Part shown: one piece after another, positions 6,677 to 16,722 of the stretch | How the letters are laid out: each line of letters starts with the position of its first letter | Numbering within the stretch: position 1 is the stretch's first letter | Assembly: GCA_024304985.1 (NCBI GenBank) | Contig: JAMWZC010000009.1 | Coordinates: 62,001 to 126,000 of the forward strand | From: Paracoccaceae bacterium | GTDB taxonomy: Bacteria > Pseudomonadota > Alphaproteobacteria > Rhodobacterales > Rhodobacteraceae | Direction of reading: 5' to 3' | DNA: 64,000 nt | Made by a program: the position numbers and the translations under genes | Notes under the pieces: generated by a model | Told to the model about the DNA's origin: nothing | Database searches by the model: none | Seen by the model: the letters and a program-made list of their open reading frames with translations, nothing else

Positions 6677-6754
6677 TGCAAGGTCAGGATGGCGCGCCAA
6701 CAGTTGCGCGCCTCTGCGCCATGGGCCATGATTGTGCCCAAGGGAGAATGCAGA

Positions 6755-7210
6755 ATGCGCAAGTTTCTGGTCGTGCTGGATGACAGCCGCGAATGTCTGA
6801 ACGCGATGCGCTTTGCCGCAATGCGGGCCGCGCGAACCGGCGGCGGGGTCGAGATCCTGTCAGTGATCCCGCCTGAGGAGTTCAACCACTGGATCGGCGT
6901 GGGCGACATCATGCGCGAAGAGGCGCGGGAGCGTATCCATGCCCATTTCGAGGTCTTTGCCAAATGGATGCGGGACAAGCAGGGGGTGGACCCCGAGCTT
7001 GTGATACGCGAGGGCGAACCTGTGACCGAAATTCTGGCCCAGATCAGCGAGGATAATGACATCGGTGTTCTGGTGCTTGGGGCGGGAACCGACAAGGGTG
7101 GCCCCGGACCGCTGGTCACGCAGTTGACGCGCAGCGCAGGCACACTGTCGGTGCCCATCACCATCGTGCCGGGGGACCTTTCCAAGGAGCGGCTGGAAGC
7201 CATCACCTGA
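6755..7210 (+). CDS. Universal stress protein (UspA family)
   Basis: A 151-residue single-domain Usp fold. It opens with the strand MRKFLVVLDDS and ends with the nucleotide-loop region VLVLGAGTDKGGPGPLVTQLTRSAGTLSVPITIVP; the G-x2-G-x9-G-S/T loop is only partly preserved. Such proteins bind ATP or AMP and help survival in stress; the target is unknown. The ATG at 6755 follows AAGGGAG, so the longer in-frame start at 6689 is rejected. It is convergent with the tct operon. Confidence 0.85.
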   Translation: MRKFLVVLDDSRECLNAMRFAAMRAARTGGGVEILSVIPPEEFNHWIGVGDIMREEARERIHAHFEVFAKWMRDKQGVDPELVIREGEPVTEILAQISEDNDIGVLVLGAGTDKGGPGPLVTQLTRSAGTLSVPITIVPGDLSKERLEAIT

Positions 7211-7220
7211 CGCAGAAAGA

Positions 7221-7253
7221 CGGGCAAGGGTTTACCCCTGCCCGCCTGTTTCA
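7221..7253. terminator. Bidirectional terminator between usp and tctA
   Basis: CGGGCAAGGG (7221-7230) pairs with CCCCTGCCCG (7235-7244) around a TTTA loop, with one internal mismatch. A CCTGTTT tract follows on the plus strand and a pyrimidine-rich TCTTTCTG tract on the minus strand. It lies between two convergent genes. Confidence 0.6.
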
Positions 7254-7263
7254 CTGACCGAAA

Positions 7264-8784
7264 TCAGGCGCGGTTCGTGCGCGCCACTCCACGATGGCGC
7301 AGGAAGGCCCAGATGCGCGGGCCGAAAACCGCAAGGATCGCGATGGCATAGATCGCAAGCGCGATCTTGGAGGTGACAAGAAAACTCCAGTCACCGCGAT
7401 TGATCATCAGGCCCCGCCGCAGTTGCTCTTCCGCCAAGGGTCCGAGAATTGCCCCCACCAATGCCGGTGCCAGCGGATAACCGAAGCGGCGCATCAGAAA
7501 GCCGATCAGACCGAAACCCAGAAGCAGGATCAAGGCAAAGGCCGAGCCCTGTGCCCCGACGATGCCCAGCGTGGCAAAGGTCAGGATCCCGGCATAAAGC
7601 CATGGGCGCGGAATGGTCAGCAGCTTCACCCAGATGCCGATGAAGGGCACGTTCAGCACCACCAGCATCAGGTTGGCGATGAACAGGCTGGCAACCAGAC
7701 CCCAGACCAGTTCGGCATTGTTGGTGAACAGCAAAGGTCCCGGTTGTAGACCGTATTGCTGGAACCCCGCCAACATCATCGCCGCCGTGGCCGAGGTCGG
7801 CAGCCCCAGCGTCAGCAGAGGAATCAGCGTGCCTGCGGCCGAGGCGTTGTTGGCGGCCTCAGGCCCGGCCACACCCTCGATGGCGCCGCGCCCCTCGTCG
7901 AAATCCCGCCGCCCCTCGCCCGTGGCCAGCCGTTTCTCGGTGGTGTAGGACAGGAAAGTCGGGATTTCCGCACCGCCCGTAGGCAGAGGGCCGAACAGGA
8001 AACCCAGCCCGGTGCCCCGGATATAGGGGCGGATGCAGCGTTTCAGATCGGTCCAGTTCAGCCAGACCGAGCCCTTGACTGCTTCGGCCTTGGTCTTGTG
8101 GTTGATATGTTGCGAGGCAAGGAACATCGTCTCGCCAATCGCGAACAGGCCCACGGCGACGATGGCGATCGAGATGTTGTCGCTCATTTCCGGCACGCCG
8201 AAGGCCAGACGCACCTGCCCGGTCAGCTTGTCCGTGCCGACCAGACCGATGGTCAGGCCGATGAAAAGCGCCGTCAGGCCGCGCGTGACCGATCCACCGA
8301 AAGCCGCCGAAACGGTCATGAAGGACAGCACCATCAGCGCGAAATACTCCGCCGTCCCGAAAGACAGGGCCACCGCAACCATCAGCGGTGCGATCAGGGC
8401 AAGGCCCATGGTGGCGAAGGTGCCGCCGAAGAACGAGCCGATGGCCGCCGCCCCCAGCGCCTTGCCACCCGCGCCGCGTTTGGCCATGCGGTTGCCCTCA
8501 ACCGCCGTCATGATCGAGGCCGTCTCGCCCGGTGTGTTGAGCAGGATCGACGAGATCGCGCCGCCATACATGCCGCCATAGTAGATGCCTGCAAACATGA
8601 TCATCGAGCCGGTGGCACCGAAAGACAGGCTGACCGGCAGAAGCAGTGCCACTGTCAAAGCAGGCCCGATCCCCGGCATCACGCCCACGGCGGTTCCCAG
8701 CATCACGCCAAGCAGCGCGAACATCAGGTTCATGGGTTGAGCAGCCGTAGCCAGACCGTCGAGAAGAAGAACGAATGTATCCAT
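7264..8784 (-). CDS. tctA: Tripartite tricarboxylate transporter, large permease TctA
   Basis: The 506-residue main membrane subunit of a TTT-family secondary transporter, which moves a carboxylate delivered by the periplasmic protein TctC. The sequence is almost all hydrophobic helices, with family-typical glycine-rich stretches such as [17 protein letters not shown] (residues about 38-54), [21 protein letters not shown] and [14 protein letters not shown]. It is the last gene of tctC-tctB-tctA, starting 6 bases after the tctB stop. The substrate is unknown: the family takes citrate, aromatic acids such as terephthalate, and other carboxylates. Confidence 0.92.
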
Positions 8785-8790
8785 GATGTC

Positions 8791-9369
8791 CTACCGCAGA
8801 AGAAGGTCGATGCTGCGCTCCAGCGGGCCGTTCGGCAGGGCAAGGCCCAGACCATAACGGAACAACAGAAACAGCAGGGTGGACATGACCGCGCCGATGG
8901 CGAAGTTCAGCAGATGGGTGGTCTGGCCAAAGGCACGCGCGGAAAAGGCGAACAGCACTGTCGAGGCGGCGATGAAGCCGGTTCCTGCGAACAGCATGAT
9001 GATTTCGGTGACGATGGCCGCGACGATCCAGAACAGACCGGAATAGTTCAGACGCGCCCGCGCTTCGAACCCGCCACGCCATGCGATCACGGCTGTGAAC
9101 CCCGCCAGAACAACGATGCCGAAGGCGATGATGTAGGGGAAAATCTCGGGGCCGAATTGCGCGTAAGAGCGGCGGACCGGATAGCTTGAGGCGTCGCCAT
9201 AGATCACGAGGGCCAGCGCGAACAGACCCGCCGCGATCCCCAGACCGGCAAGGTCACGCAGACCGCTGCCCTGACCCACCTCATCCTCGCCGTGCAGCCG
9301 CACCTCGGGCGCGGATTGATCGGCGGACAGCCGGGTTTCCCCGGCTGTCTCTTGTCTGTCGGCGGGCAT
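8791..9369 (-). CDS. tctB: Tripartite tricarboxylate transporter, small permease TctB
   Basis: A 192-residue small membrane subunit with an N-terminal hydrophilic stretch of about 35 residues and four hydrophobic helices, the normal TctB layout. I place the start at the ATG at 9369, where TGATG overlaps the tctC stop by one base; the longer in-frame version reaching 9498 would run deep into tctC and is unlikely. TctB is poorly conserved in sequence, so the call rests mainly on its place between tctC and tctA and on its topology. Confidence 0.85.
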   Translation of the reverse strand: MPADRQETAGETRLSADQSAPEVRLHGEDEVGQGSGLRDLAGLGIAAGLFALALVIYGDASSYPVRRSYAQFGPEIFPYIIAFGIVVLAGFTAVIAWRGGFEARARLNYSGLFWIVAAIVTEIIMLFAGTGFIAASTVLFAFSARAFGQTTHLLNFAIGAVMSTLLFLLFRYGLGLALPNGPLERSIDLLLR

Positions 9370-10322
9370 CACTCTGCGATCCCGAGGTCTTTCAGGATCT
9401 CGCCCGTCGCCGCGATTTCCTGCTCCAGATAGGCGGCGAAATCGTCGCCGGCGAGGAACGTGTTGACCCAGCCCTTGGTCGCCAGCGCCTCGGCCCATGT
9501 GTCCGAGGCGGCCATGGTTTCGATGGTGCCCAGAAGCGTCGCCTTCTGCTCGTCCGTGATGCCCGGAGCTGCGGCGATCATGCGCCAGTTCTGCACTTCG
9601 ACATCAAATCCCTGTTCAGTGAAGGTAGGCGCGTCCAGATAGTCCTGACGTTCGGGAGCGGTGATGCCGATGACCTTGAGGGCACCCGCTTCGATCTGGG
9701 CTGAAAACTCCGAGAAACCAGAGACACCGACGCTCACCTGACCGCCAAGGATCGCGGCCAATGCCTCGCCGCCACCAGCGTAGGGGATGTAGTTGATCTC
9801 CTCCGGAGCGACACCCGCCGCCTTGGCGAACTGACCGGCGGCGATGTGATCGACACCGCCTGCGGAACCACCGGCCCAAGTGACTGCACCGACATCTTCG
9901 CGCAGGGCATTGGCCAGATCCTCGGCCGTGTTGATCGGGCTGTCTGCGTTGGCGACAACCACCACATATTCACCGGTCAGACGTGCCAGCGGCGTGATGT
10001 CGGACAAACCGACGGGCGAGGCATTCGCGATGATAGCCCCCACCATCACATAGCCGCCCACGATGGTGGCCGTGGGATCGCCGCTGGAGCGGTTGACGAA
10101 TTGCTGCAGGCCGATGGTGCCACCCGCACCTGCCACGTTCTCGACCTGAATATTGGCCACCAGCCCTTCGGTTTGCAGCGTGGACTGGATGGTGCGCGCG
10201 GTCTGGTCCCAACCGCCGCCGGGGCCTGCCGGGGCCATGATCTTGAGTTCCGACATCTGGGCGAATGCGGTGGGGGCCAGCAGCGTGGCCGAGATGAGTG
10301 CTGCGATACCAAGTTTCTTCAT
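9369..10322 (-). CDS. tctC: Tripartite tricarboxylate transporter periplasmic binding protein TctC
   Basis: A 317-residue extracytoplasmic solute receptor that catches the carboxylate and hands it to TctBA. A cleavable signal peptide is clear (MKKLGIAALISATLLAPTAFA). The mature part starts with the Bug-family stretch LKIMAPAGPGGGWDQTART, followed by the conserved VENVAGAGGTIGLQQF and a late DAPTFTEQGFDVE region. The ATG at 10322 follows GGGAGG; the open frame extends upstream to 10493 but without signal-peptide character. First gene of its operon, downstream of a 250-base region with tandem repeats. Confidence 0.93.
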   Translation of the reverse strand: MKKLGIAALISATLLAPTAFAQMSELKIMAPAGPGGGWDQTARTIQSTLQTEGLVANIQVENVAGAGGTIGLQQFVNRSSGDPTATIVGGYVMVGAIIANASPVGLSDITPLARLTGEYVVVVANADSPINTAEDLANALREDVGAVTWAGGSAGGVDHIAAGQFAKAAGVAPEEINYIPYAGGGEALAAILGGQVSVGVSGFSEFSAQIEAGALKVIGITAPERQDYLDAPTFTEQGFDVEVQNWRMIAAAPGITDEQKATLLGTIETMAASDTWAEALATKGWVNTFLAGDDFAAYLEQEIAATGEILKDLGIAE

Positions 10323-10480
10323 GATGTCCTCCCGTGACAATCTGTGCGGCGCGGTGGCCGGAAGTGGACAGGGAAGGATGGGGTTCAGTCTGTCACGGGA
10401 TGGGCCAAAGCGCGGCGTGAGCCCAAGGGCAGCACCAAACGCGCGGCTTTCTCCCTGCCTGCAGAGGAACCGGACACCTC

Positions 10481-10495
10481 CCATGTCCGGCATGG
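10481..10495. promoter_or_regulatory. Inverted repeat upstream of tctC
   Basis: CCATG (10481-10485) and CATGG (10491-10495) form an inverted repeat around 5 bases, 19 bases from the tandem repeats that share the CATGG core. It may be a further half-site arrangement for the same regulator. The evidence is symmetry and position only. Confidence 0.3.
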
Positions 10496-10513
10496 ACCGA
10501 GAATAGCCGTGTT

Positions 10514-10546
10514 TCCTGTCATGGTCCTGTCATGGTCCTGTCATGG
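10514..10546. promoter_or_regulatory. Three perfect tandem 11-bp repeats, candidate TctD operator
   Basis: The unit TCCTGTCATGG occurs three times head to tail without any change (10514-10524, 10525-10535, 10536-10546); read towards tctC the unit is CCATGACAGGA. A period of 11 bp places each copy on the same DNA face. OmpR-type response regulators typically bind direct repeats of this spacing, and one is encoded in this cluster (13034-13732). The array lies about 190 bases upstream of tctC, just past the end of the kinase gene. Confidence 0.55.
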
Positions 10547-10572
10547 GCAGATCTGGCGGCACAGGTGCCGGA

Positions 10573-13074
10573 TCAGGGCGCACCGGGCGAGACAATTTCG
10601 CGCCATGTCGCCAGAAAGCGGCTGCGGCGTTGCGGGTCGAGTGCCACCATCAGGACCGGACCAAGGGCGATGGGCTGAATGGTGCCACGTCCCATGGCCG
10701 AGATCCGTTCCTGCGTCCAATAGCCCTGCGCCGCGGGCATCACCGCACCCAAGGCTGCCTGGCCTGCGGCGACGGATTGCCCCGCAGGCGACAGGGCGAA
10801 ATCCACGAAAGCGCGTGCCAGATCGGCGTTTGCCGCCTTGCGCGGGATCACCATCGTCCGGGTCAGAACCAGCACATAGTCATCCGGCACGATGATCCCG
10901 ATCGGCGCGCCTGCCGCTTGCCTTGCAAAGGCATAGGAGCCAAGCACGTTGTAACCCAGCGCCAGATCGCCCGCCGCCACGCGATCAAGGATCGCAGGGC
11001 TGGAATCGCTCAGCCATGCCCCCACCCGCCCGAAGGCCGCCGCAAGACGCCAGAATTGCGATGAGATCTGCTGATCCTGCGCTGCGAGCAGATAGCCCAC
11101 ACCGCTGCGCGAGATGTCATAGGTGGCGATGCGCCCCCGGAACCTGTCCGGATCACGTTCCAGCATCTCGGCCAGTTCCAGATGGCTGCGCGGCTGCGTA
11201 CCGGGGGGAAGCCATGCAGGGCTGTAGATGATGACCGCGGGTTCGTAGGTGAAGCCGATCACCTCGTCGCGCCAACTGGCCCAGGGCGGCAGACTGTCAC
11301 TCCAGTTCGACGTATGGGCCAGCGCATGGCCATCATTGGCCAGTTTCAGTTGCAGATCCGAGGCCGAACTGATCAGCAGATCCGGAGCTACGGGCAGATT
11401 GCCGGCCAGAAACCCCTCGTAAAGGGCGATACTGTCGGTCTCGACATAGGTCACGGCGACCGAAGGGTTCTGCGCCTGAAAGGCGGTGATGAAACCCGCG
11501 AAAAGCTGCGTGTCAGTGGTGCCCGCGATATGCAGCCGCCGCGTTTCGGGCTGGTGCGACGGGTAGACGAGAGGTTCATTGGCCACTGACAGGTCAGGCA
11601 TAAACAGCAGTGTGCCCAGCAGCACCATCGTGCGGCCCGCGCGGTTTCGTTTTTGTGCCGCGGCCGCATGGGTTTGCATCGGAAGTTCCAGCACGACGCG
11701 CAGACCGCCCCCCACCCGATCCGACAGGGTCAAGGTGCCGCCATGTGTCTGCGCCACCCGGCTTGCGATATCCAGACCCAGCCCCGAGCCGACCTTGTCC
11801 TCGTCTGTTGTGCCCCGCACGAAACGCTGGATCACGCGCGGCTTGTCAGCGTCGGGAATGCCGGGGCCACGATCCAGCACCGAAAGGACGATCCGGCCAG
11901 CTTGTGACAGGCGAAGGTCAATCTCGACAGGTCCGTCGGAATAGATCAGCGCATTGCCGATCACGTTGGCCAACGCTTCGCGCAGGGCGATCCTGTCACC
12001 CTGCACAACGGCGGTCTCGGCCCCCGCCGCCAAGGTCACAGACACCCGTGGTGCCAGATCAGGATCAAGCCGGCCGACCACCTCTTCGACAACCGCAGCC
12101 ACCGAAAGCGGACGCGTTTCGCTCTTATCCATCCGATGCGAGATCGTGGCATCCATCAAAAGCTGTGACACCAGATGGCTGGATTGCACCGCCAGCGTGT
12201 TGATCCGCGCGACCCTTGCGCGCAAACGGGCCTCGTCCGGTTCGGTCAAGGCCATGTCAGATTGTGCCCTGAGCGCCGCCAGCGGGTTACGCACCTGATG
12301 CGCGGCCTCGGCCACCAGTTCGCCCATGCGACCCATGGACACGCCCAGCCGGGCCATGAAGCCATTCAACCCCTCGACCAGACGCTGCACCTCGATGGGA
12401 ACCGGCACATCCAGTGGCGACAGATCATCGGGGCGGCGCTGCCGCAAGGCACGGTCTATCGTGGCCAGCGGCGCGAAGGCCCGTCCGATCACGACCCAGA
12501 CCATGCCAAGGGCCAGAAGGGTCAGCACCGCCACCGGCACAAGCGCATTGCGCTGGATCTCGGTCGCAAGCGTCGTCCGGGCGCCCCGCGTTTCGGCCAC
12601 GCGCACGGTGACCCAGCCGGTTTCCTCGGCGGTCGAGATCAGGCGGCCGACGGTCACCAGCCGCACGTCCTCGCCGTTATGGGCGGTGTCGGCGAATTGC
12701 GGCACGGTCGAGGCGGCCAGAGGCGCGTCGCGCGCAAGATCGGAATAACCTGTCACATGCGCGCCGTCCGGGCCTAGCACGCTGTAGAAAACCCGTTCCT
12801 GCCCCGAAACCATGGCAAAGGCCGCCACCGGCAGTTCCAATGCCACCGCCCCATCTTCGACCTGCACCGCCCCCGCGATGGAAAGGGCCGAGGCTGACAG
12901 AAGCCGGTCAAAGGCGCGATCCGCCGCCTGAAAGGCATAGTCGCGGATGAATGTGATCAGCAGCGCCGCTGCCATCAGCAGCATGACCGCCGCCAGCACC
13001 AGAATACGGCGGCGCAACGACAGTGACGAAGACCTAGACCCGGTCATCCCGGCCATTCTCCCCGGTTCTGCCAT
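10573..13074 (-). CDS. TctE-type sensor histidine kinase fused to a periplasmic solute-binding domain
   Basis: An 833-residue hybrid. Residues about 20-45 are a first membrane helix, then a periplasmic sensor region, a second helix near 180-200 and a HAMP-like linker. HisKA follows with EAAHQVRNPLAA (His259), then an ATPase domain with NVIGNALIYSDG, DRGPGIPD and GSGLGLDIA. This much is a complete TctE-like kinase. Instead of stopping, the frame continues through a third hydrophobic segment (about 480-498, MVLLGTLLFMPDLSVA, like a signal peptide) into some 330 residues resembling iron-type or PgtC-type extracellular binding proteins (e.g. RRLHIAGTTDTQLFAGF, SRSGVGYLLAAQD, NVLGSYAFARQ). If the third segment spans the membrane, this domain is periplasmic. 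The start overlaps the regulator gene; ATG 13047 is an alternative. Confidence 0.9.
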   Translation of the reverse strand: MAEPGRMAGMTGSRSSSLSLRRRILVLAAVMLLMAAALLITFIRDYAFQAADRAFDRLLSASALSIAGAVQVEDGAVALELPVAAFAMVSGQERVFYSVLGPDGAHVTGYSDLARDAPLAASTVPQFADTAHNGEDVRLVTVGRLISTAEETGWVTVRVAETRGARTTLATEIQRNALVPVAVLTLLALGMVWVVIGRAFAPLATIDRALRQRRPDDLSPLDVPVPIEVQRLVEGLNGFMARLGVSMGRMGELVAEAAHQVRNPLAALRAQSDMALTEPDEARLRARVARINTLAVQSSHLVSQLLMDATISHRMDKSETRPLSVAAVVEEVVGRLDPDLAPRVSVTLAAGAETAVVQGDRIALREALANVIGNALIYSDGPVEIDLRLSQAGRIVLSVLDRGPGIPDADKPRVIQRFVRGTTDEDKVGSGLGLDIASRVAQTHGGTLTLSDRVGGGLRVVLELPMQTHAAAAQKRNRAGRTMVLLGTLLFMPDLSVANEPLVYPSHQPETRRLHIAGTTDTQLFAGFITAFQAQNPSVAVTYVETDSIALYEGFLAGNLPVAPDLLISSASDLQLKLANDGHALAHTSNWSDSLPPWASWRDEVIGFTYEPAVIIYSPAWLPPGTQPRSHLELAEMLERDPDRFRGRIATYDISRSGVGYLLAAQDQQISSQFWRLAAAFGRVGAWLSDSSPAILDRVAAGDLALGYNVLGSYAFARQAAGAPIGIIVPDDYVLVLTRTMVIPRKAANADLARAFVDFALSPAGQSVAAGQAALGAVMPAAQGYWTQERISAMGRGTIQPIALGPVLMVALDPQRRSRFLATWREIVSPGAP

Positions 13075-13732
13075 CCCGCGCCAGATAACCCACCCCCCGC
13101 ACCGTCACGATGTCGACCCCGGCCCCGGCGATCTTGCGCCGCACACGCGAGACCAGCAGTTCCAGTGCGTTTTCGGACCCGCCATCCTCCAGATCGAAAA
13201 GCCGCGACATCAGACGCTCGCGCGTGACCACCCGCCCGGCCATCCCCATCAGGGTTTCCAGCAGGCGAAACTCGCGCAGGCCCAGATCGACCAGACGCCC
13301 TTCCAACCAGAGAACCTTGCCCGCAGGTTCCAGTTCCAGCAGCCCCAGTTCCAGCCGAGAGGCCACATGCCCGGCTGGACGCCGCGTCAGGGCGCGCAAC
13401 CGCGCCTCAAGCTCTCGCATGTCGAAGGGTTTGACCAGGTAATCGTCCGCCCCCTGATCCAGAAGGCTGACCTTGTCGTCGATTTCTGCCTTGGCGGTGA
13501 TGACCAGCACCGGCAGATCGCGTCGGTTGCGTCTGAGTTGCCTCAGGATGGTCAACCCGTCCGCTTCCGGCAGGGTCAGATCAAGAATGATCGCGTCGGG
13601 CTCGTCCAGCAAGACCTCGTCCAGAACGCCCTGACCATCGGTATTCCATGTGACCAGATGACCGGCCGCACGCAGGCGACGCTCGATCGCCTCACCCAGA
13701 TCATGATTATCCTCGACCAGCATGATGTTCAT
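13034..13732 (-). CDS. OmpR-family response regulator (TctD-like)
   Basis: A 232-residue DNA-binding response regulator. The receiver domain starts MNIMLVEDNHDLGEAIE, with acidic residues at 8-9, phosphate-accepting Asp51 in DAIILDLTLPEADG and the conserved Lys in DYLVKPFD. A winged-helix output domain follows (LREFRLLETLMG, SRVRRKIAGAGVDIVTVRGVGYLA). It precedes and overlaps the fused kinase gene, so the pair is co-translated. By analogy with TctDE it should control tctCBA, transcribed in the same direction downstream. I prefer the ATG at 13732, where homology begins; upstream starts to 13810 add residues not typical of the family. Confidence 0.9.
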   Translation of the reverse strand: MNIMLVEDNHDLGEAIERRLRAAGHLVTWNTDGQGVLDEVLLDEPDAIILDLTLPEADGLTILRQLRRNRRDLPVLVITAKAEIDDKVSLLDQGADDYLVKPFDMRELEARLRALTRRPAGHVASRLELGLLELEPAGKVLWLEGRLVDLGLREFRLLETLMGMAGRVVTRERLMSRLFDLEDGGSENALELLVSRVRRKIAGAGVDIVTVRGVGYLARDGRTGENGRDDRV

Positions 13733-13950
13733 GAGACCCATGCAAACAACAGCCCGGTGCATTTGTATAGTGCGAACTGTACCTGACTGACCGTTGCGCC
13801 TTGGACACACACAACCTAAGGACGGCTCATCTCTCTTAAGATACCGCCATTTACGAGATCTTGCCTCATTTTTGCTCTGATTCCCGGATTGAAATGTTCC
13901 CAGACCATAACGGCACGGGACAGCGCCGGATGATCAAGAAGGACAGAAGA

Positions 13951-14070
13951 ATGAGCGCAGGATTTGTCGCATTGATCGTATACCTTGCCATCGCCTTTGT
14001 GGCGATGCTGGCCTTTTGCCGTGCCGCAGCGCGCGGTGATCGACCGATGGACAAACAGCGCGCCGCGTGA
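13951..14070 (+). CDS. Possible 39-residue single-helix membrane protein
   Basis: The reading frame encodes MSAGFVALIVYLAIAFVAML and continues to a basic, polar tail (RAAARGDRPMDKQRAA). That is one membrane helix with a positively charged cytoplasmic end, in the size range of small regulatory membrane proteins. A weak GGACAGAAG ribosome site precedes the ATG. It is divergent from the tctD-like gene, 218 bases away. No family is recognised, and a chance frame is possible. Confidence 0.4.
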   Translation: MSAGFVALIVYLAIAFVAMLAFCRAAARGDRPMDKQRAA

Positions 14071-14460
14071 CTGTTGCAGCAGGGTGCCTGGACGTTCTGT
14101 TCGGACATCCATGCGGCGACCTCAATCCCGCCCACCGCATCCCCCGCAGCACCTTCGGCGGATTGACGCGACTGTGACCGTTACCCGGCACAAGTGACGT
14201 GCCGCCATATCCAGAAAGCATGTCGCATCAGGTTGACTCCAAACTGCGATCCAGCGGCGCCCCCTCAGAGGACGAAACACTGATGACCCCGTGGACGTCA
14301 CGGGCAACCCGATTGCCCGGCGTGAGACTCTGAAAAGTGGATTGCAGCAAGTCGACCTGACAAGAGCCGAGTAGCCACTGTCTGTCCGGGAAAGCGCTCT
14401 CTACGGGCGCTCAGATACTCCCTTCGAGTCGATCAGCGATTGCCTCTTCGCCCTCCTCGG
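14071..14460. other. Gene-free stretch between the small membrane ORF and nrdJ
   Basis: About 390 bases with no convincing protein or tRNA. Two hairpins can be drawn. CGGGCAA (14301-14307) pairs with TTGCCCG (14313-14319). A weaker GAGCGC/GCGCT stem on the minus strand around 14393-14412, followed by TTT, could end the nrdJ transcript. Otherwise I see nothing specific. Confidence 0.3.
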
Positions 14461-16722
14461 TCAGCCGCACTTGGAATGGCCGCAACTCGCGCAGGTCATG
14501 CAGCCTTCGACCATCCGCATCTCGTATTGCCCGCAGGAGGGGCATGCTTTGCCGCGTGGGGTGTCAAAGCCCACCACATTGGCCTGCGGGTCGGTTTTCA
14601 GTCCCATCCCCTCACCCTCGATGAAACCGATCGAGATCATGTGACGCTCGATCACACCGCCGATGGCCGCAAGGATCGACGGGATGTATTTCCCCCCCAT
14701 CCAGGCCCCGCCGCGCGGATCGAAGACGGCTTTCAACTCTTCGACCACAAAGGACACATCCCCGCCACGCCGGAACACCGCCGAAATCATCCGCGTCAAC
14801 GCCACGGTCCAGGCGAAATGCTCCATATTTTTCGAGTTTATGAACACCTCAAAGGGGCGACGATGCCCATTGATGATGATGTCGTTCACGGTCAGGTAAA
14901 TCGCATGCTCGCTGTCGGGCCATTTCAGCTTGTAGGTATTGCCCTCCAGAGCCTGCGGACGGTCCAGCGGTTCCGACATGTAGATCACATCCGCACCCTG
15001 ATCGGCTTCGGGTGTCTTTTCGGTCGTCTCGGACACGCTGAGGACGGACCCCGTGACATCATTGGGGCGGTAGGTGGTGCAGCCCTTGCAGCCCGATTCA
15101 TAGGCCGCCATGTAAACCTCCTTGAAATCATCAAAGCTGATGTCTTCGGGGCAGTTGATTGTTTTCGAGATCGAACTGTCCACCCATTTCTGTGCTGCCG
15201 CCTGCATGCGCACGTGATCCAGCGGGGCCAGCGTCTGGGCGTTGACAAAGTAGTCCGGCAAGGGCGCATCACCGAACGTCTCGCGCCACATCTGCACGGC
15301 GTAATCGACGACCTCTTCCTCGGTCCGGCTGCCATCCTTTTGCAGAACCTTGCGCTTATAGGCATAGGCGAAGACCGGTTCGATCCCGGATGACACATTG
15401 CCCGCATAGAGGCTGATCGTGCCCGTGGGCGCGATCGAGGTCAGAAGCGCGTTACGGATGCCGTGTGTGCGGATCGCCTCGCGCACGTCATCGTCCATCA
15501 TCTGCATGTTGCCGGAGGCCAGATACCTGTCGGCATCAAACAGCGGGAAAGCACCCTTTTCCTTGGCCAAGTCCACCGAAGCCAGATAGGCGGCGCGGGC
15601 GATCGCGTGCAGCCATTCCTCGGTCTGACGCGCCGCCTCCTCGGACCCATAGCGCAGCCCCACCATCAACAGGGCATCGGCAAGACCCGTGACACCCAGA
15701 CCGATGCGGCGCTTGGCCTGCGCCTCCTGCGCTTGGGCATCCAGCGGGAACCGGCTGGCATCCACCACATTGTCCATCATCCGCACGGCCACGGCGACCA
15801 GATCGGTCAACGCCTTGGGGTCCAACCGGGCCTTTTTCCCAAAGGGATCCGCCACCAGCCGCGCCATGTTGATCGAGCCCAGCAGGCAGGCACCATAGGG
15901 CGGCAAGGGTTGCTCGCCGCAGGGGTTGGTGGCCGCAATGGTCTCCACGTAGTTGAGGTTGTTGGCCGCGTTGATCCGGTCGATGAAGATCACGCCGGGT
16001 TCTGCGAAATCATAGGTGCTTTTCATGATCTTGTTCCACAGATCGCGCGCCTGGACCGTGTGATAGACCTTTCCGTCGAATTGCAGATCCCAAGCCGCGT
16101 CTGCCTTGACCGCTTCCATGAAGGGATCGGTGATCAGCACCGACAGGTTGAACATGCGCAGACGGGCCGCATCCGATTTGGCGGTGATGAAGGCCTCGAT
16201 ATCGGGATGATCGCAGCGCATCGTTGCCATCATCGCGCCCCGACGGCTGCCCGCCGACATGATCGTCCGGCACATCGCATCCCAGACATCCATGAAGGAC
16301 AGCGGCCCCGACGCATCGGCGGCCACGCCCAGAACATCCGCCCCGCGCGGCCGGATGGTCGAGAAATCATAGCCGATCCCCCCGCCCTGCTGCATGGTCA
16401 GCGCGGCTTCCTTCAGCATGTCGAAGATGCCGGCCATGCTGTCGGGGATCGTGCCCATCACGAAGCAATTGAACAGCGTCACCCGCCGCCCGGTGCCCGC
16501 CCCTGCGGTGATGCGGCCGGCGGGCAGGTATTTGAAATCCTCCAAAGCCGCGTAAAACTTGTCCTCCCACAGGGCGCTGTCCTGTTCGACCTGCGCCAGC
16601 GACCGCGCGATGCGGCGCCAGGTATCCTCGACCGAGCGGTCGATGGGCGTGCCATCCGCCTGCTTGAACCGGTACTTCATGTCCCAGATCTGTTCGGAAA
16701 TGGGGGCTGCAAAACGGGTCAT
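14461..16722 (-). CDS. nrdJ: Adenosylcobalamin-dependent ribonucleoside-diphosphate reductase (class II)
   Basis: Reduces ribonucleotides to deoxyribonucleotides with coenzyme B12 as radical source, so it works with or without oxygen. The 753-residue protein matches the shorter class II form. Visible features are the substrate-site Cys in TLFNCFVMGT, GGGIGYDFSTIRP, the radical-site stretch NPCGEQPLPPYGACLLGSINM, the late IAPTGTISLYAGN, and a C-terminal Cys cluster (CPSCGQ, CASCGHSKCG) that passes electrons to the active site or binds metal. It is a lone gene divergent from a DUF1489 gene. No cobalamin riboswitch was recognised in its 190-base upstream region. Confidence 0.95.
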   Translation of the reverse strand: MTRFAAPISEQIWDMKYRFKQADGTPIDRSVEDTWRRIARSLAQVEQDSALWEDKFYAALEDFKYLPAGRITAGAGTGRRVTLFNCFVMGTIPDSMAGIFDMLKEAALTMQQGGGIGYDFSTIRPRGADVLGVAADASGPLSFMDVWDAMCRTIMSAGSRRGAMMATMRCDHPDIEAFITAKSDAARLRMFNLSVLITDPFMEAVKADAAWDLQFDGKVYHTVQARDLWNKIMKSTYDFAEPGVIFIDRINAANNLNYVETIAATNPCGEQPLPPYGACLLGSINMARLVADPFGKKARLDPKALTDLVAVAVRMMDNVVDASRFPLDAQAQEAQAKRRIGLGVTGLADALLMVGLRYGSEEAARQTEEWLHAIARAAYLASVDLAKEKGAFPLFDADRYLASGNMQMMDDDVREAIRTHGIRNALLTSIAPTGTISLYAGNVSSGIEPVFAYAYKRKVLQKDGSRTEEEVVDYAVQMWRETFGDAPLPDYFVNAQTLAPLDHVRMQAAAQKWVDSSISKTINCPEDISFDDFKEVYMAAYESGCKGCTTYRPNDVTGSVLSVSETTEKTPEADQGADVIYMSEPLDRPQALEGNTYKLKWPDSEHAIYLTVNDIIINGHRRPFEVFINSKNMEHFAWTVALTRMISAVFRRGGDVSFVVEELKAVFDPRGGAWMGGKYIPSILAAIGGVIERHMISIGFIEGEGMGLKTDPQANVVGFDTPRGKACPSCGQYEMRMVEGCMTCASCGHSKCG

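Follow-up and report, generated by a model that had tools for sequence, protein, structure and literature searches.

Binding proteins that carry their ligand can drive sensor kinases, as two described bacterial systems reveal. In the HptASR system of Staphylococcus aureus, the receptor HptA docks on the outer domain of the kinase HptS (PMC8774646). In Bordetella pertussis, the citrate-loaded binding protein BctC activates the kinase BctE (PMC5812351).

The window analyzed here is a 64,000-nucleotide stretch of a Paracoccaceae genome, in which a TctE-like sensor kinase and a solute-binding protein (SBP) are encoded by one gene beside tctCBA. Like HptASR, which controls a nearby transporter (PMC8774646), the locus combines a regulator, a kinase and a receptor of the periplasmic-binding type that lies outside the transporter. 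Unlike the locus in the window, HptASR consists of three separate genes, responds to glucose-6-phosphate, and involves another type of kinase and of transporter. BctDE/BctC, and TctDE systems generally, share with the window a two-component system located beside tctCBA. However, BctC is a transport receptor that itself signals, whereas the window encodes a second receptor that belongs to another family and is tied to the kinase. The system in the window is a variant of known three-component sensing of the HptASR type, not a new kind of system. An earlier, sequence-only reading of this DNA had likened it to PgtB/PgtC; the comparison to a three-component system with a separate receptor is apt, but HptASR is the better documented parallel. 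Searches of open-access papers turned up no account of either the fusion or the third component.

The fused gene and its cluster

The features of the cluster, with residue numbers counted from the start of the open frame, are as follows.

13034..13810, minus strand: tctD-like OmpR-family response regulator (Pfam Response_reg and Trans_reg_C; adjacency)
10573..13074, minus strand: fused gene, TctE-like sensor kinase followed by SBP (open frame, Pfam, same frame in relatives)
12556..12981, minus strand: 2CSK_N periplasmic sensor region with flanking TM1 and TM2, residues 32-173 (Pfam PF08521, E 2.7e-33)
12142..12327, minus strand: HisKA dimerization domain, residues 250-311 (Pfam PF00512)
11674..12000, minus strand: HATPase_c catalytic domain, residues 359-467 (Pfam PF02518, E 2.1e-22)
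11581..11652, minus strand: third hydrophobic segment, signal-peptide-like, residues 475-498 (hydropathy, Ala at -1, weak matrix score)
10573..11580, minus strand: SBP of the MctA/3C9H type, residues 499-833 (AlphaFold2 model, MctA match, residue mapping)
9369..10322, minus strand: tctC, transport receptor (Pfam PF03401)
8791..9372, minus strand: tctB, start codon uncertain (Pfam PF07331)
7264..8784, minus strand: tctA (Pfam PF01970, E 2.2e-140)

The frame runs for 833 codons without interruption, and the Pfam domains follow one another in a single chain in the order listed, with the SBP families matched at residues 522-783. These results bear out the initial claim that one open frame encodes a TctE-like kinase and a complete SBP. 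The kinase is of the TctE type, with 2CSK_N, HisKA and HATPase_c in order and an OmpR-type regulator alongside. The phospho-acceptor H259 lies within the sequence AAHQVRNPL of HisKA, and the histidine is invariant across the alignment. The N-termini of relatives correspond to residue 10, so the true start of the fused gene is probably ATG 13047, which overlaps the stop of the regulator gene by 14 nt. The regulator probably starts further in than the listed frame, at about 13732. The regulator gene is upstream of the fused gene, and tctC, tctB and tctA, which are adjacent and constitute a tripartite tricarboxylate transporter cluster, are downstream, all on one strand. The fused gene is present as a single copy in its genome. 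A gene encoding a universal stress protein (6689-7210, plus strand) adjoins tctA.

Kinases of the BvgS type, whose binding-protein sensor domains are inserted between TM1 and TM2, likewise join a kinase to a binding-protein fold within a single chain. The BvgS domain precedes the kinase, on the periplasmic side, whereas the SBP in the window follows the catalytic domain.

The receptor domain and its likely ligand

The AlphaFold2 model of the SBP domain has a pLDDT of 94.6. It matches MctA at Z 44.6. The closest structures are those of MctA with Mg2+-citrate or citrate (Z 44-45; rmsd 1.8-1.9; 32% identity) and 3C9H from A. tumefaciens (Z 43.9; 36% identity), whereas binding proteins for hexose phosphates and ferric iron score much lower (Z about 30). 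Profile matches extend over the whole domain, with E-values of 7e-109 (3C9H) and 1e-77. MctA (7F6E and relatives) and 3C9H therefore share a family with the SBP in the window by both fold and sequence, and the residues of the ligand site are retained. Structure 6lkg, which we take to be HptA, is a distant profile match to the SBP, and a PHROGs search of the SBP returned no match.

Six residues mutated in deposited MctA structures map to T519, D521, S570, S657, S692 and Y714, and all six are kept or conservatively replaced in the SBP. D521, S657 and Y714 are invariant among 34 fused and separate SBPs, and S570 is found in 33 of them. These six positions are candidate ligand residues. Given the MctA-type family and the retained residues, the ligand is likely a tricarboxylate, perhaps with Mg2+, which fits the adjacent tctCBA. 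The suggestion that the kinase senses a ligand-metal complex is plausible because the closest solved relatives include Mg2+-citrate-bound MctA.

MctA and 3C9H, unlike the SBP in the window, are free proteins described as receptors of ABC transporters. This annotation is what speaks for a role of the SBP in transport, as a second receptor for TctAB or for an ABC importer, instead of in signaling. Such a role is improbable, given that the SBP sits with the regulator and kinase and not with permease genes, that its gene is either joined to that of the kinase or overlaps it, and that a separate tctC is already present in the same cluster. The analysis instead supports the proposal that a receptor distinct from TctC belongs to the kinase.

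A widespread third component

Far from being exotic, the SBP has a relative in 160 of 296 genomes of the family, and the regulator-kinase-SBP cassette adjoins tctCBA, in line or divergently, in most of 47 regions, whether fused or not. On the basis of this arrangement, the TctDE-type citrate switch has, across the Alphaproteobacteria, the SBP as its standard third component, which appears to have gone unremarked. As in HptASR, the gene for the SBP sits with those for the kinase and regulator, apart from the transport receptor. Among the 47 regions, tct genes were not found near L135, L142, L147, L153 and L160. In L142 and L162, an SBP of the MctA/3C9H-type family is encoded divergently from the regulator-kinase pair. 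In Azospirillum brasilense, tctA is separated from the regulator gene by genes for a TerC-family protein and a universal stress protein.

The start of the SBP gene overlaps the stop of the kinase gene in 64 of 67 separate pairs, typically by 4, 22, 28 or 31 nt, and the SBP frame differs from the kinase frame. Fusion of such neighbors is to be expected from this overlap. No fewer than 27 different fused proteins were read. Among GTDB genomes, a scan revealed seven full-length fused relatives with 67-86% identity, from Yoonia, Loktanella, Paracoccus gahaiensis and an unclassified Rhodobacteraceae bacterium. Within the family of the window, a full-length match in one frame occurs in six of 395 genomes scanned (its own included), and most other genomes with matches have the kinase and SBP as two neighboring matches. 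In f16, a second family of the class, six of 17 genomes encode the full-length fusion. Thus, to the question raised at the outset of how widespread the fusion is, the answer is that the pair is widespread as overlapping genes, and that the fusion is rarer but recurrent.

Plasmid records with the fusion come from Peteryoungia desertarenae, Azospirillum species, Sulfitobacter, Palleronia and Salipiger. In these records the fused protein is annotated only as "extracellular solute-binding protein", Azospirillum included. By contrast, kinase and SBP are annotated as two genes in Bradyrhizobium, Bosea, Microvirga, Shinella and others. The P. desertarenae plasmid (L163) is a Rhizobiaceae megaplasmid that harbors the whole cluster, with 70% identity to the window protein, which suggests horizontal transfer. 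Genome G107 contains both a fused and a separate copy (loci L124 and L125), each with its own regulator and tct genes.

A sequencing or assembly error that hides a stop codon would make the fusion an artefact. Many genomes, some of them sequenced in independent projects, have the same unbroken frame, which rules out such an error as the source of the fusion and leaves an artefact with a negligible probability.

Repeated origin of the fusion

A tree was built from the kinase and SBP domains, concatenated without the join. The fused proteins split into group I (the window, Yoonia, Loktanella, Paracoccus, Peteryoungia and four f16 genomes), Azospirillum, L080 alone, and group III (L049-L052 and L081). 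The plasmid clusters of group III at L169, L170 and L171 have an "AbrB family" gene after tctA. A single origin, with all fused proteins as one clade, was rejected (p-AU 1.55e-54), as was the union of group I with Azospirillum and L080 (p-AU 0.0003). Branches with good support require three or more changes of state, which the tree alone does not assign to gain or loss of the fusion. The separate form is widespread and overlapping; hence repeated fusion would be a simpler reading than fission, although fission of an old fusion may have occurred on single branches. On this reading the fusion is derived, and it arose at least twice, probably three or four times; the placement of L080, which bears on three versus four origins, is poorly supported.

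The join between kinase and receptor

The join in the window reads KRNRAGR-TMVLLGTLLFM-PDLSVA-NEP, with a positive n-region, a short hydrophobic core, and SVA before N499. The earlier reading counted this stretch as a third hydrophobic segment, and it is present, at about residues 482-492. As a transmembrane helix it does not hold up as well: its longest hydrophobic run is 11 residues, short and weak, and its mean Kyte-Doolittle hydropathy over 19 residues is 1.2, compared to 2.9 for TM1 and 2.7 for TM2. Across 20 fused proteins, the median maximal 19-residue hydropathy is 1.83 for the third segment, versus 2.82 for TM1 and 2.44 for TM2. The signal peptides of free SBPs have a median maximal value of 1.71, near that of the third segment. 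The segment looks like the retained signal peptide of the SBP.

Signal peptidase I would probably cut between A498 and N499. The -1 position is Ala in 19 of 19 fused proteins, an invariance that is partly by construction because the sites were aligned by eye on the Ala, and the -3 position is A, S, V or L in all 19; most other positions vary freely. Within clade I, the conserved residues that follow the Ala lie at distances from it that vary by at most two. A similar site, with A, T or G at -3, is readable by eye in eight further fused proteins. Conservation within a clade reflects shared descent, and so only the few independent origins count. By a matrix trained on separate signal peptides, fused joins score roughly 9 against a median of 20.4 for free signal peptides, and 14 of 20 fused joins beat shuffles at p<0.05. 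The join in the window scores a weak 3.8 (p 0.04), and another site within the same protein scores higher.

The alternative is that the chain stays whole, with the third segment as a membrane anchor that permanently tethers the receptor to the kinase. Longer hydrophobic stretches occur at the join in some fused members (L004, L007, L105 and L106). The scores of fused joins, below those of free signal peptides, are as expected if cutting were no longer selected, and tethering would supply a selective reason for repeated fusion. In addition, a cut kinase would keep a hydrophobic tail, which counts against cutting; in the short-linker group L049-L052 this tail would hold the ATPase domain near the membrane. 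However, the segment in the window would make a poor anchor, being too short and too polar, and the cleavage motif is found in all fused proteins even though the linker is otherwise free to drift. AlphaFold2 results on 18 fused sequences contain long helices for TM1 and TM2 but a disordered join (pLDDT about 35); the full-length model is modest (pLDDT 75, pTM 0.55) and does not decide topology, so the missing helix is weak evidence against a third transmembrane segment. A permanently tethered chain thus seems unlikely, though well short of negligible, and a polyprotein cut into a kinase and a free receptor is favored from the sequence features of the join. Accordingly, the topology first proposed, with sensor outside, kinase inside and SBP outside in one joined chain, is doubtful in its final element, that the parts stay joined.

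A further alternative is separate synthesis of kinase and receptor from the fused frame, by internal translation starts. In-frame ATG codons are present near the join in the window, and the arrangement that appears ancestral is one of overlapping genes with their own starts. However, no start codon is conserved at the join, several other joins have only one or two weak candidates, and those of A. brasilense and A. thermophilum are devoid of ATG, GTG and TTG. The two Azospirillum joins rule out internal starts as a general rule, and this explanation is very improbable for the window.

A model for citrate sensing

Processing of a precursor at an internal signal peptide has precedent in FbcH, the cytochrome b/c1 precursor of Bradyrhizobium japonicum. 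There, a membrane protein and a periplasmic protein are linked through an internal signal peptide, and the precursor is cut in two. The fused protein of the window resembles FbcH in having one gene, one precursor and, at the join, a candidate internal signal peptide. However, FbcH is a respiratory enzyme for which cleavage has been shown, whereas the cut in the window protein is a presumed one.

In the proposed model, the merged kinase and receptor gene would give rise to one polypeptide. TM1 and TM2 would place 2CSK_N on the periplasmic side and the kinase on the cytoplasmic side, and the third segment, the old signal peptide of the receptor, would act as an internal export signal that takes the SBP across the membrane. 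Signal peptidase I would probably then cut after A498. Released receptor and kinase would stand in a fixed 1:1 ratio, and the kinase would keep a short hydrophobic tail at its C-terminus. SBP loaded with citrate, perhaps as Mg-citrate, may dock on the 2CSK_N domain and change kinase activity, and the phosphorylated regulator would act at direct repeats before tctC. We consider this model as a whole, a three-component citrate or tricarboxylate sensor that controls tctCBA, with merged kinase and receptor genes and a chain that is probably cut, to be somewhat more probable than its negation. The chances are evenly balanced for the narrower proposal of a signaling polyprotein, in which histidine kinase and co-receptor are made as one chain, cut by signal peptidase to a 1:1 ratio with a membrane-bound tail on the kinase, and derived by several fusions from an overlapping pair.

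If the chain is cut, it is a bacterial signaling polyprotein; if not, it is a receptor-tethered kinase. The presence of the fused form in Azospirillum, a genetically tractable plant-associated genus, makes this question testable. The natural fused and unfused versions are also suited to testing how a binding protein drives a kinase, and the two copies in G107 provide a natural test pair.

The control region before tctC

The region between the fused gene and tctC contains the repeat stretch ATGACAGGACC, with the following feature.

10515..10544, minus strand: three 11-bp direct repeats (R)TGACAGGAC, candidate response-regulator box upstream of tctC

The repeat pattern exceeds chance in the window and has no other site in the 3.76-Mb genome. 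Every clade I locus examined has two or three copies of TGACAGG at 11-bp spacing in the equivalent position, and L158, a system with separate genes, has the pattern in its divergent tctC promoter. Direct repeats at 11-bp spacing suit an OmpR-family regulator, and for this reason the repeats are a candidate box for the regulator of the cassette.

A small hairpin, CCGGACA-TGGGAGG-TGTCCGG (10470-10490, minus strand), lies approximately 38 nt downstream from where the last repeat starts and is a possible leader element of tctC. Rfam returned no family within 7000-14500, the hairpin included. In 10 relatives the loop is invariant and the stem changes on both sides at two pairs; 92.9% of cells are paired, a value reached by 15 of 500 shuffles.
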